Shown in pieces: positions 26,566 to 30,789 of a stretch of DNA of 64,000 nucleotides. The position numbers and the translations under genes are program-made. Every line of letters starts with the position of its first letter. The first letter of the stretch is position 1. The notes beneath the pieces were generated by a model that did no database searches, was not told the origin of the DNA, and worked only from the letters and a program-made list of their open reading frames with translations. Source of the DNA: Acidihalobacter prosperus (lineage in GTDB: Bacteria; Pseudomonadota; Gammaproteobacteria; DSM-5130; Acidihalobacteraceae); the NCBI RefSeq assembly GCF_000754095.2, contig NZ_JQSG02000001.1:605140-669139 (forward strand), given 5' to 3'.

Positions 26566-27524
26566 GCGGACTCCAGGCTGTCCAGGCAGCCTTGCAGATC
26601 GGGCGGCAGGTCGGATTTGAAATGGTAACGACGACCGGTGACAGGCATTTGAAAGCGCAATTCGGCTGCGTGCAGAAACTGGCGCCTGAGCCCCAGCGCG
26701 CGATTGCCTCGATCGGCGCCGAAGTCGCCGTAGCGGGCATCGCCCACGACCGGATGACCGATATGGGCTGCATGCACGCGGATCTGATGTGTGCGGCCGG
26801 TGCCGATGCGCACCTCCATCAGGGTATGCTCGGGCAATCTGCGCATCGGCTTGAACTCGCTATGCGCCTCGATGCCGTGATCATCAACGCTGACATTGCG
26901 TCTGCCTCCTCGCTCTCCTTCTCGGATCAGCGGCAGATCGACCTGCCTTGCACCGCCTTGCCAGGCACCGTGCACCAGAGCCAGATAGCGTTTGTCCATT
27001 CCGTCGCCGCGCAGCAGGGTATGCAGACGCGTCAGGCACTCCCGCGACTTCGCGATCAGCAAAAGGCCACTGGTTTCGCGGTCAAGACGATGCGCCAACT
27101 CCAGAAACGGCGCATGGGGTCGGGCGGCACGCAGCGCCTCGATCAGACCGAAGCGCAGCCCGCTGCCGCCATGCACCGCGAGGCCGGCCGGTTTGTCCAG
27201 CGCGATCAGATCGTTATCCTCGTGCATGATCGCGGCTTCGATCCGGGCCAGCAACGCTTCCGGAACATCCTCCGCCGCGCCAATCGACGGCTGCACGGAA
27301 ACCGGCGGCACCCGCACGGTATCACCCTGCTCGAGACGGTGCATGGGCTTGACCCGACCGCCGTTGACCCGAACCTCGCCACGTCGGACGATGCGATATA
27401 TCAAGCTTCGGGATACACCCTTGAGTTCGCGCAGCAGGAAGTTGTCCAGTCGCTGCCCCGCATGGCGTTCGTCGATCACCAGCTGCCGCACCCGAGGTGA
27501 ATCGTTTTGCGAAGTCGTTTTCAT
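26562..27524 (-). CDS. rluC: 23S rRNA pseudouridine(955/2504/2580) synthase
   Basis: RluC makes three pseudouridines in 23S rRNA. The 320-residue protein has an N-terminal S4 RNA-binding domain (GQRLDNFLLRELKGVSRSLI), a linker, and the RluA-type catalytic motif AHRLDRETSGLLLIAK with the nucleophilic Asp. Later RTHQIRVHAAHIGHPVVGD is typical. Its position, divergent from rne, is the same as in E. coli and supports RluC rather than RluD or RluA. Confidence 0.93.
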   Translation of the reverse strand: MKTTSQNDSPRVRQLVIDERHAGQRLDNFLLRELKGVSRSLIYRIVRRGEVRVNGGRVKPMHRLEQGDTVRVPPVSVQPSIGAAEDVPEALLARIEAAIMHEDNDLIALDKPAGLAVHGGSGLRFGLIEALRAARPHAPFLELAHRLDRETSGLLLIAKSRECLTRLHTLLRGDGMDKRYLALVHGAWQGGARQVDLPLIREGERGGRRNVSVDDHGIEAHSEFKPMRRLPEHTLMEVRIGTGRTHQIRVHAAHIGHPVVGDARYGDFGADRGNRALGLRRQFLHAAELRFQMPVTGRRYHFKSDLPPDLQGCLDSLESA

Positions 27525-27553
27525 AAATCCATGATATCAGCACACAACCGGCT

Positions 27554-27582
27554 TTGATGCGCACGCGCATCCTTGCTATATT
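27554..27582 (+). promoter_or_regulatory. rne: Sigma-70 promoter of rne
   Basis: TTGATG (27554-27559) and TATATT (27577-27582) are separated by exactly 17 bases. Each hexamer differs from consensus at few positions. Transcription would start near 27589, about 410 bases before the rne start codon. Confidence 0.6.
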
Positions 27583-27638
27583 TGCAAGGGGCATTAGCGA
27601 TACGCAACACAAAAGCCCCATACAGCAGTGATTTCCCC

Positions 27639-27662
27639 GTGATCGGGCCAGGCCCGGATCAC
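27639..27662 (+). repeat. rne leader stem-loop 1
   Basis: GTGATCGGGCC pairs with GGCCCGGATCAC around a single central A, with one extra base in the 3' arm. The tip can open to a larger loop in RNA. There is no T-run after it. Confidence 0.6.
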
Positions 27663-27668
27663 TCCAGG

Positions 27669-27690
27669 GTCGTCTCCGGATCGGAGAGAC
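27669..27690 (+). repeat. rne leader stem-loop 2
   Basis: GTCGTCTCCG pairs with CGGAGAGAC around a GAT loop, nine pairs with one bulged G. It follows stem-loop 1 by six bases, so the two could stack. Confidence 0.6.
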
Positions 27691-27783
27691 CCCAATACGT
27701 AAGGTACCGTTTGACCTTGTTCATGGATGGCTTCTGCACGACTCTCACATACGGCGGACGAATCTCGCTTCCCGTATCGTCGT

Positions 27784-27814
27784 GCATGGGTCGGCCGGCC
27801 ACCCGGCGCCATGC
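27784..27814 (+). repeat. rne leader stem-loop 3
   Basis: GCATGG pairs with CCATGC, and the G+C-rich interior between them can extend the structure. It lies about 190 bases before the rne start codon. Confidence 0.45.
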
Positions 27815-27999
27815 AGGGCACAAAAACGGCATGACAACACTTAGAGCCTCGCGTCGCCACGACTGGCCGACCCAGACACAACGGTTGATCCGCGACTGGC
27901 TGACCCTGTACTTCGGCAGCCTGTTCCACGCGGATCACCATGCACCCGGTCAGCCCCGGGTCCTGGCGCCCGGGCTCTCCTTCAGAGACACGCCAATCC

Positions 28000-30789
28000 A
28001 TGAAACGCATTCTGATCAATGCCACCCAGCCGGAAGAGCTGCGCGTGGCCATGGTCGACGGCCAAAAGCTGTACGACCTAGACATCGAAGTTCCCTCGCG
28101 CGAACAGAAGAAGTCCAACGTCTACACAGGCATCATCACCCGGGTTGAACCCAGCCTGGAAGCCGCCTTCGTCAATTTCGGCAGCGAACGTCACGGCTTT
28201 CTGCCGTTCAAGGAAGTCGCACGCGAATATTACGCCGAGGCGGTAAGGGACGGGGCCTCGCGACCGACCATCAAGGAGGCGCTGCGCGAAGGCCAGACGC
28301 TGCTCGTGCAGGTCGAAAAGGAAGAACGCGGCACCAAGGGCGCGGCCCTCACCACGTTCATAAGCCTCGCAGGACGCTATCTCGTCCTGATGCCGAACAA
28401 TCCCCGTGCCGGTGGCGTCTCGCGCCGTATCGAAGGTGATGACCGCAGCGAGCTGCGCGATGCGATGAGTCAGTTGGAGGTGCCCGAGGGCATGGGCTTG
28501 ATCGCGCGTACCGCTGGCGTCGGGCGATCGGCCGAAGAACTGCAGTGGGATCTCGACTACCTGATGGTGTTGTGGGAGGCGATCCGCACGGCTTCGTCCG
28601 AACGCAAGCCCCCTTGCCTGATCTACCAGGAAAGCAACGTCATCATTCGGGCGCTTCGCGATCACTTCCGCAACGACATCTCGGAAGTGATCATCGACGA
28701 CGCCAAAATCTACGAGCAGGCACTCGACTTCGTTCGCCAGGTCATGCCCCAGAGCGCGCGGAAACTGAAGCTCTATGAGGACCGCGTGCCCCTGTTCAAC
28801 CGCTACCAGATCGAAAATCAGATCGAAAGCGCATTCGAGCGCGAGGTCAGGCTGCCGTCCGGTGGCGCCATCGTCGTCGACCACACCGAAGCACTGGTGT
28901 CGATCGACGTGAACTCGGCGCGCGCAACCAAGGGTGGCGACATAGAGGAAACAGCGCTCAACACCAATCTCGAAGCAGCGGACGAGGTCGCACGTCAGCT
29001 ACGTCTGCGTGATCTCGGCGGTCTCGTGGTGATCGATTTCATCGACATGGCGCCAAGCAAGCATCAGCGCGAAGTCGAAAATCGCCTGCGCGACGCGCTC
29101 AAGCTCGATCGCGCACGCGTTCAGATCGGTCGCATCTCCCGTTTTGGCTTGCTGGAAATGTCGCGTCAGCGACTGCGCCCCTCCTTGGGCGAATCGAGCC
29201 ACATCGTGTGCCCCAGATGTAGCGGTCACGGCACCATCCGCGACGTGGAGTCCCTTGCGCTTGCGGTCATTCGCCTGATGGAAGAAGAAGCGATCAAGGA
29301 CAAGACCTCCCAGCTGCTCACCAAGGTACCGGTTGAAGTGGGTACGTTCCTACTCAACGAGAAGCGCAGCACGCTGACCGATATCGAGCAGCGCCACCAG
29401 GTGCGTATCGTAGTCGTGCCGACACCCTCGCTGGAAACGCCGCACTTCGAACTGGAACGGATACGCGATGACGGCAAGACCAAGGACGGGGATAGCGAAG
29501 CCGCCACGCAACACAGCTACAAACTAATCGACACTCCGCCCGAGCCGAGCGTGCAGGCCACCGCCAAAGCGGGCGGCGCTTCGCAGCCGCAGGCTCCCGC
29601 CGTTTCCATGGTTGCGCCGCCGCCGACGGCAATGCCCACGCCGACCACCGAAACCGGAGCGCCGGCCCCGTCCGGGGATGGCATCAAGCCGGGGCTGATC
29701 ACGCGCATCTGGCACAGCCTGTTCGCGCCGATGCCCGAGTCCGGTGGCGACGCACGTCAGACCGAAGAGCGCATCCAGCGCCCTCGCCCACAGGCGCGAA
29801 TCACGCCTTCCTCTGGCGGCACCACCGACCCGCAGCAGGAAAAGCCTCGCGCGCGACGAGACAAGCCGGCGCGCACCGAAGACCAGCGTCGTGGGGAAGC
29901 CCGCGCAGACGGACGGCGCGCGGCGACCGGGCAGGCACGAAACGGCGAAAGGCCAGAGAACGCCAAGGATACGGAAGCTGCGCGCAAGTCGAACACGCCC
30001 GATGGAGAAACCGGCTCGCGCGTCGAAACCGCAAATACCGGGGACGAATCTCAGGCACCCCGCTCTCGCTCCAGCCGCCGCCGTTCCAATCGCCGCCGCG
30101 GACGCAACAGGGAGTCGGGTGATCGAAGCGAAGCAGCCGAAAATGGGCAGCAGGCAGACGCATCGGAACACGTTTCGCAGAACACGGATGCGCCCGCTGC
30201 CGCGGACAGGCCGGCAGGCGACGATGAAGGCGCGCGCGACGACGGTTCGCCGAACACGGGACGCAGTCGCAATCGTCGCCGGCGCGGCGGCCAGCGACGC
30301 TCACCTGATGCAGATACGGCTGCAGTCGCGGCGTCTCCGCAACAGACGGAGGCAGAGCGGCCCCAAACGGCACAACAACGCCCTTCCACGTCCGCGGAAA
30401 GCTCCGCTCCGAATGTCTCGATGACGACCACACCCCCCGAGTCCAGGCACGCAGACGAAGGTGGTGAAACCAGCCGCAACTCCAAGCCAACGGCAGCTCC
30501 GGGCTCCTCGGCGGAGTCGAAGCCGCAGGTGGCGGCGCAGCCTGCCGCGGCCAACATACCGCCACAGACCGCTCCCGCAGAACGCCCAGCGGCGCAAGAC
30601 CGCCCCGAGACTAGTGGCGGCGATCGGCCGCCGGCCTCCAAGCCCGAGACCGCGCCGGCGACGGAAAGCCGTGAGCCTGCGTCCAGACACGCACCGAGCG
30701 TCAAGCCGGCCGATCTCTCGAAAGAAGTCGCCGCTGCGGAACGCCCCGAGTCGCCCGCCTCGACCTCAAATAAGACGGCCGAAGGCTGA
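28000..30789 (+). CDS. rne: Ribonuclease E
   Basis: RNase E is the main endonuclease of mRNA decay and rRNA/tRNA processing and the scaffold of the degradosome. The 929-residue protein has an S1 domain (~residues 35-120), the 5' sensor region, the DNase I-like catalytic part with [18 protein letters not shown] and VVIDFIDM, and the Zn-link CPRCSGHG with cysteines at 404 and 407, the same numbers as in E. coli. After about residue 510 it becomes a long low-complexity tail rich in Pro, Ala, Glu and Arg, with two Arg-rich patches ([15 protein letters not shown] and [13 protein letters not shown]) that probably bind RNA. I chose the ATG at 28000 ([10 protein letters not shown]) over an upstream frame start. 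Confidence 0.97.

Follow-up and report, generated by a model that had tools for sequence, protein, structure and literature searches.

A structured leader before the RNase E gene of Acidihalobacter prosperus and its possible role in feedback control

RNase E is a major initiator of mRNA decay. In Escherichia coli, its level is set through the leader of its own message. Feedback of rne through its 5' UTR is established in E. coli (PMC3997798, PMC10989929), where, according to PMC3997798, the primary cut in the leader is independent of RppH, yet control is lost in a 5'-sensor mutant. Such feedback is also indicated in Synechocystis, in which a long leader is cut by RNase E at a U-rich site, and PMC10989929, which reports this, describes rne control in other lineages as little known. 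In addition, rne-II is listed in PMC2864571 as a separate candidate structured RNA of Pseudomonadales, so that more than one family of rne leaders exists.

Here we describe the region 5' of rne in a window of 64,000 nucleotides (the whole stretch of DNA that was analysed), in which the following parts can be distinguished.

27554..27582, plus strand: sigma-70-type promoter TTGATG-17-TATATT with TG before the -10, the only such site in 1.1 kb and conserved in relatives
27588..27619, plus strand: hairpin A (GGGGC/GCCCC), where the transcript is predicted to begin; folds in four genomes
27625..27636, plus strand: linker GCAGTGATTTCC, identical in four genomes and fitting the RNase E consensus
27639..27662, plus strand: hairpin B, 10 pairs with one bulge; folds in four genomes
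27667..27692, plus strand: hairpin C, 11 pairs with one bulge; folds in four genomes
27700..27731, plus strand: most conserved block, a small hairpin AAGGU/ACCUU and then TTCATGGAT at 27720-27728, distinguished by identity and by a complement to the rne start
27723..28148, plus strand: candidate upstream frame of 141 codons, in the -1 frame over the rne start, open in G000-G002
27843..27978, plus strand: 3' part of the leader with a conserved core at 27843-27931, distinguished by identity
27984..27988, plus strand: weak Shine-Dalgarno-like AGAGA before rne, present before rne in all five family genomes
28000..30789, plus strand: rne (RNase E), by NCBIfam NF008074 and Pfam RNase_E_G and S1

The product of rne is RNase E by its NF008074 score (913 bits against a cut-off of 908) and by the matches to Pfam RNase_E_G and S1. 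A divergent gene of the RluA/RluC family starts at 27524; it scores 333 bits with the RluC model, under the cut-off of 378, and lies over the cut-off of the RluA-subfamily model. Five family genomes were compared, namely the window's own (G000), two of the same genus (G001 and G002) and two of a second genus (G003 and G004), and fourfold-degenerate sites of G000 against G001 and G002 served as the neutral baseline (identity of 52% and 50% for rne and of 45% and 42% for rluC). The nearest named relative found is an Acidihalobacter MAG (L020), with 72% identity in Rne.

The first-pass annotation had placed a clear promoter about 410 bases before rne, and this promoter was found again. On both strands of 27200-28300 it is the one sigma-70-like site, where shuffles expect 0.3; the count alone is weak evidence, to which conservation in relatives adds. 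G001 and G002 retain the two hexamers and most of the spacer (identity of 27551-27585 to G000, 94% and 86%), and G004 has both hexamers with a spacer of 16 nt, so that the hexamers are present in four of the five family genomes, G000 itself counted. The transcript is predicted to start at about 27588, which would give a leader of about 412 nt up to the rne ATG. The fold of 27589-28030 reaches -176.4 kcal/mol (z -4.35), and none of 100 shuffles was as low. The in-frame ATG at 27940 was considered as the start of a longer RNase E N-terminus and rejected, because 27932-27970 keeps only 56% identity in G001 and 23% in G002. In the window at 27555-27591, the -10 hexamer lies between the inverted repeats CCTTGC/GCAAGG, and GATGCG/CGCATC covers the -35 end and the spacer; neither pair of repeats is intact in G002.

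Compared with the E. coli system, this locus has several common features. First, the gene is the same, and it is divergent from an rluC-type gene, as rne is from rluC in E. coli, where yceQ is annotated between them. Second, the predicted leader lies 5' of rne, as does rne5, the RNase E 5' UTR element of E. coli. Third, the predicted leader length of 412 nt is near the 361 nt given for E. coli in PMC10989929. Sequence likeness is a different matter: the hairpins had been judged not recognisably those of E. coli, and the leader indeed matched neither rne5 nor rne-II. Rfam searches at gathering score, and with E up to 5 on 27300-28200, returned no rne family and nothing over its gathering score in the leader; a sub-threshold sX13 match on the minus strand (E 1.9) was taken as chance. 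With strict filters, rne5 (RF00040) passed its gathering threshold of 180 bits in 0 of 56 genomes and in 1 of 14 controls, E. coli being among the four controls with a match; the window gave no match, nor did the rne locus of any of the five family genomes. Its sole match in the family (G003, E 7.4) is on a contig other than that of rne. For rne-II (RF01756), which sits in the rne 5' UTR, none of the 56 genomes was over the threshold of 50 bits and all nine matches were below it, with 0 of 14 controls passing and hence no positive control; the sole match in G000 (E 3.76) is likewise on a contig other than that of rne. The host, judged by its nearest named relative, does not belong to the Pseudomonadales, unlike the hosts of rne-II. 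The leader can thus be described, by these comparisons, as a structured rne leader like that of E. coli which has no Rfam match and appears to be a member of neither rne5 nor rne-II. As its promoter and hairpins recur in close relatives, it is probably a real control region of RNase E's own gene. It may have evolved independently, as the first-pass annotation suggested, or it may be an old leader that is shared with E. coli and has diverged beyond recognition, because the rluC-type divergence and the leader length resemble E. coli, although the sequence does not; neither the linker nor the GCTCCC motif treated below occurs within 450 nt upstream of rne in E. coli. The Synechocystis leader differs in that its cut lies in a run of six U and in that premature termination was proposed there (PMC10989929), of which the window has no sign.

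The order promoter, hairpin A, linker, hairpin B, hairpin C is common to G000, G001, G002 and G004. Three stem-loops had been noted after the promoter, and all three fold at the places listed and recur in these four genomes, with stems that are partly or wholly different in sequence. Two of them had been described as nine to eleven pairs long and six bases apart; the lengths stand, at 10 and 11 pairs, and the spacing is 4 bases in the present fold. For statistical support, each piece was folded per genome against 2000 dinucleotide shuffles and the p-values were combined by Fisher's method. For G000, G001, G002 and G004 respectively, hairpin A gave p of 0.024, 0.12, 0.024 and 0.059 (combined 0.0016), hairpin B 0.017, 0.020, 0.0015 and 0.057 (combined 3e-5) and hairpin C 0.008, 0.001, 0.42 and 0.001 (combined 5e-6), and B and C jointly reached a combined p of 1.7e-7; these combined values overstate independence, as four genomes are few and three of them belong to one genus. 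In G002, hairpin C folds no better than shuffles and B with C is not significant (p 0.11). In longer folds, other pairings replace hairpin A in G001 and hairpin C in G002. The sequence identity of hairpin A (61% in G001, 63% in G002) and of 27663-27695 around hairpin C (58% and 61%) is near the neutral level, and that of hairpin B is 83% in both genomes.

The linker is kept far more strictly. Its 12 bases, GCAGTGATTTCC, are unchanged in G000, G001, G002 and G004, and 27625-27638 is 100% identical in G001 and G002 (14 of 14 and, with one gap, 13 of 13 positions). When 70 leaders were searched for AGTGATTT, it was present in four, every one from the family of Acidihalobacter. With an arrow for the cut, GA↓UUU in the linker fits the RNase E cleavage consensus RN↓WUU given in PMC10989929, which predicts a cut between 27631 and 27632. 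The linker is mostly unpaired in G000 and partly unpaired in G001, G002 and G004, several of its bases having an unpaired probability of only 0.1-0.5 in G001 and 0.3-0.6 in G002. Among the relatives, G004 gave no blast match upstream of rne, and despite this it has the promoter hexamers, a 5'-terminal hairpin and two tandem hairpins of other sequence (hairpin A wholly different, hairpin B different) and the same linker GCAGTGATTTCC. In the same genome (locus L111), a trpF-like frame about 1.3 kb upstream of rne and a trpB-like frame, both recognised by eye, take the place of rluC. In G003, of the same family, the motif search upstream of rne found none of the leader motifs; in its leader (L110), ACGCTCCCG at -207 could, by eye, pair with CGGGAAGCGT near -30. 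A lack of the stems in close relatives, which the first-pass annotation had named as a refuting outcome, was looked for and did not refute it, as four of the five family genomes have them. The first-pass annotation did not name the two parts that proved most conserved, which are the linker 5' of hairpin B and the block at 27700-27731. Taken together, its observation is confirmed, and its interpretation as a control element is partly supported.

Based on this arrangement, we propose that RNase E limits its own synthesis through the leader, by cleavage of the linker, a reading in which our belief and our doubt are about evenly balanced. A 5'-terminal hairpin should hinder 5'-end-dependent entry of RNase E, and the transcript would begin with such a structure in hairpin A. 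When in excess, RNase E would next gain entry at an internal site: hairpins B and C, standing in tandem, would dock on the enzyme, which would cut the adjoining linker at GCAGUGA↓UUUCC. The cut mRNA, now bearing a 5' monophosphate and deprived of hairpin A, would be degraded quickly. According to PMC9841416, cleavage by E. coli RNase E can be helped by a structured element next to the site, which may be as simple as a stem-loop. Pairing of the block 27700-27731 with the rne start could add a translational layer, which is possible because the 9-nt complement exceeds shuffles. The promoter, the hairpins and the linker are present as sequence in four family genomes and the block in three; from them we infer transcription as such, the docking, the RNase E cut and its effect on rne. 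Because the order of parts is conserved, Rfam has no match and a single precise cut site is predicted, the proposal can be tested in one experiment.

The same block allows a different explanation, namely that pairing of 27720-27728 with 27996-28004 would keep the rne start hidden, to be opened by RNase E, temperature, pH or an sRNA. The block was found in three family genomes (G000-G002), with an identity of 100% in G001 and 97% in G002, and its TTCATGGAT is a perfect complement of the rne start over 9 nt including the ATG. Compared with shuffles, this complement has p of 0.016 in G000, 0.002 in G001 and 0.016 in G002, and p of 0.0006 within the block of G000, and the pairing is present in both the minimum-energy and the consensus folds. 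However, both arms are invariant and therefore offer no covariation, the three genomes are not independent, both arms contain the self-complementary CATG, and in G003 and G004 the longest complement to the rne start is 5 nt, the same as in shuffles. We consider sequestration of the start codon unlikely as the main mode of control.

The leader 3' of this block was folded as well. The core 27843-27931 is 90% identical in G001 and 80% in G002, and AGAGCC (27843-27848) with GGGCTCT (27972-27978) forms a possible closing helix just 5' of the ribosome-binding site. When single-genome folds of -160..-14, -270..-160 and -277..-14 were carried to the other two genomes, none of 18 comparisons had significantly fewer broken pairs (lowest p 0.09). 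The structure that single and consensus folds draw 3' of 27731 is accordingly not claimed, covariation support being absent. The conserved 3' part also contains a direct repeat of 17 nt, CCACGACTGGCCGACCC at 27857-27873 and CCGCGACTGGCTGACCC at 27890-27906, at 88%.

A further explanation involves translation of the leader. In bacterial leader peptides and overlapping upstream frames, a short frame overlaps the start of the gene that it controls. The candidate frame here begins at ATG 27723, within the conserved block, and it would overlap rne by about 149 nt, out of frame and with a putative hydrophobic segment. Ribosomes in this -1 frame would overrun the rne start and lower initiation at rne, and, as RNase E works at the membrane, the message could be brought there by the hydrophobic segment; we regard this explanation as unlikely. 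In favor of this explanation, the frame is open 5' of rne in all five family genomes, it is open over 277 nt of equal length in G000-G002 with ATG 27723 kept in all three, and indels keep the -1 frame in the window's genus, in the Ectothiorhodospira group and in the L049/L053 pair. In addition, a block-permuted, BLOSUM-based test of amino-acid-level conservation gave p of 0.0095, 0.0265 and 0.016 in three groups, and there is a class-wide excess of hydrophobic segments over the other two frames. Several results argue against it. In the window's genus the p of 0.0095, which was obtained over -277..-15, weakens to 0.051 and 0.16 when two shorter stretches are tested, and 0.0075 is obtained for an antisense frame; in the three-group test, too, individual other frames come out at similar values, and over 45 gapless leader pairs the mean z is 1.49 against 1.32 and 1.02 in the other frames. 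The substitution counts in G000-G002 are flat over the codon positions, without concentration at third positions or synonymous excess. No Shine-Dalgarno sequence lies at normal distance before 27723, and the other ATG, at -169, is ATA in G001. The frame is also absent in E. coli, where 3 codons only are open. It has no Pfam or NCBIfam match, and its segment at 27885-27926 is only moderately hydrophobic over 14 residues; all five family genomes stay under the hydropathy cut-off used below (0.94-1.59 over 14 residues).

Another explanation is a passive long leader, whose structure would only stabilise or space the mRNA with no feedback. It would fit G003, which lacks every motif searched for, but conservation of the linker and of the block 27700-27731 far exceeds that of fourfold sites, and we think a purely passive role quite improbable. 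Premature termination at hairpin B or C, for which two strong tandem hairpins early in the leader might speak, is very improbable and was rejected: hairpins B and C are not followed by a U-run, and the search for terminator-like sites found none. The proposed cleavage of the linker by RNase E is the reading that we prefer for this leader.

The -1 frame was also followed across the Gammaproteobacteria. The first leader set consisted of L006-L099 less the 19 of 94 in which patterns found no rne start (75 leaders) plus the five family genomes, 80 in all; the second consisted of 80 regions hand-chosen among the matches listed (of 200) plus 17 motif loci, of which 90 of 97 were kept, 14 of them motif-picked. 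The sets of 72, 69 and 90 leaders are those left after near-duplicates and short leaders were removed. Upstream of rne, the -1 frame, which reads CAT GAA across the rne start, is open for at least 40 codons in 37 of 69 non-redundant leaders, against 29 for frame 1 and 8 for frame 0 (shuffles, mean 18.2, highest of 30 being 23), and in 45 of 90 leaders of the second set, against 29 and 13 for the other frames (shuffles, mean 24.0, highest of 40 being 31). Openness alone is not specific, because frame 1 also exceeds shuffles in the first set.

Hydrophobicity separates the frames more clearly. A segment of 14 residues with a mean hydropathy of at least 1.6 is encoded in the -1 frame of 17 of 69 and 22 of 90 leaders, compared with 1 of 69 and 2 of 90 for frame 1 and 0 of 69 and 1 of 90 for frame 0, which makes 39 cases among 159 leaders, compared with 4 for the other two frames combined; when the second set was shuffled, the number of such segments averaged 3.2 and never exceeded 7. 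Of the 22 cases in the second set, 5 came from the 14 motif-picked leaders and 17 from the other 76, so that the excess holds without the loci picked by GCTCCC (17 of 76 against 2 and 1 in the other frames), and it also holds without leaders that have a divergent ORF of at least 70 codons starting within 210 nt (19 of 96 against 1 and 1). The median start of the segment is -130 (quartiles -157 and -115), and an in-frame ATG lies within 40 codons upstream of it in 30 of the 39 cases, mostly without a good Shine-Dalgarno sequence. As examples, L021, L024, L023, L046, L143, L185 and others have a hydrophobic segment at about -160 to -75, such as LPWLCACALLL or SWWCLCALLLM. In the Thioalkalivibrio group there is one single-base gap, upstream of the candidate start, and in Natronospirales the -1 frame is broken. 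A Pfam and NCBIfam search of four such peptides gave no family and one sub-threshold S21 match only. The best 10 residues of the window have a mean hydropathy of 1.29, compared with 1.82, 1.48, 1.65 and 1.80 in G001-G004, and the window's leader thus appears to have only a weak version of the class-wide hydrophobic frame.

Hydrophobicity with little else conserved would suit a role in membrane targeting or ribosome traffic. Judging from these frames, one might suppose that in many Gammaproteobacteria translation of the frame brings the rne message to the inner membrane and holds down initiation, that RNase E destroys its own message there, and that the window represents a weakened member in which the hairpins and the linker serve as the entry site; we offer this as a speculative and rather unlikely extension. 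Should the class-wide frame be translated, the nuclease would be bound to the membrane and its message linked to the membrane as well, which would add a new layer to RNase E control. We believe that this class-wide lead deserves separate study. Among the matches listed in a search of open-licence papers, titles and abstract openings mentioned neither an overlapping frame nor a GCTCCC motif at rne.

This motif belongs to a second class-wide pattern. When 8-mers were counted in 67 rne leaders (other Gammaproteobacteria with G003 and G004, near-duplicates kept), GCTCCCAT and CTCCCATG were the most frequent, with 21 each, mostly about 170 nt before rne, and many leaders have a matching GAGC about 22 nt upstream of rne. 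Both arms together with the rne start were found in 17 of 274 class genomes, representing 15 families, compared with 200 of 274 for the rne start alone and 0 of 274 for a control pattern with both motifs permuted; the exact two-arm pattern is absent in G000, G003 and G004, the family genomes in this draw. Rfam, searched at gathering score with 18 rne loci that contain one arm or both, gave nothing. The arms are complementary, and the statistical support for their pairing is weak: for the 27 leaders with both arms (22 non-redundant), p was 0.047 with a 2-nt bulge and 0.86 and 0.72 with bulges of 1 and 3, and by duplex energy a long-range helix of -240..-100 with -50..-8 reached p of 0.05 or less in 3 of 72 non-redundant leaders, as expected by chance. 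For example, L013, L015, L048, L049, L056, L081 and others have GCTCCC(ATG) at about -170 and a GGTYGAGC-like sequence at about -22, and the two are mutually complementary.
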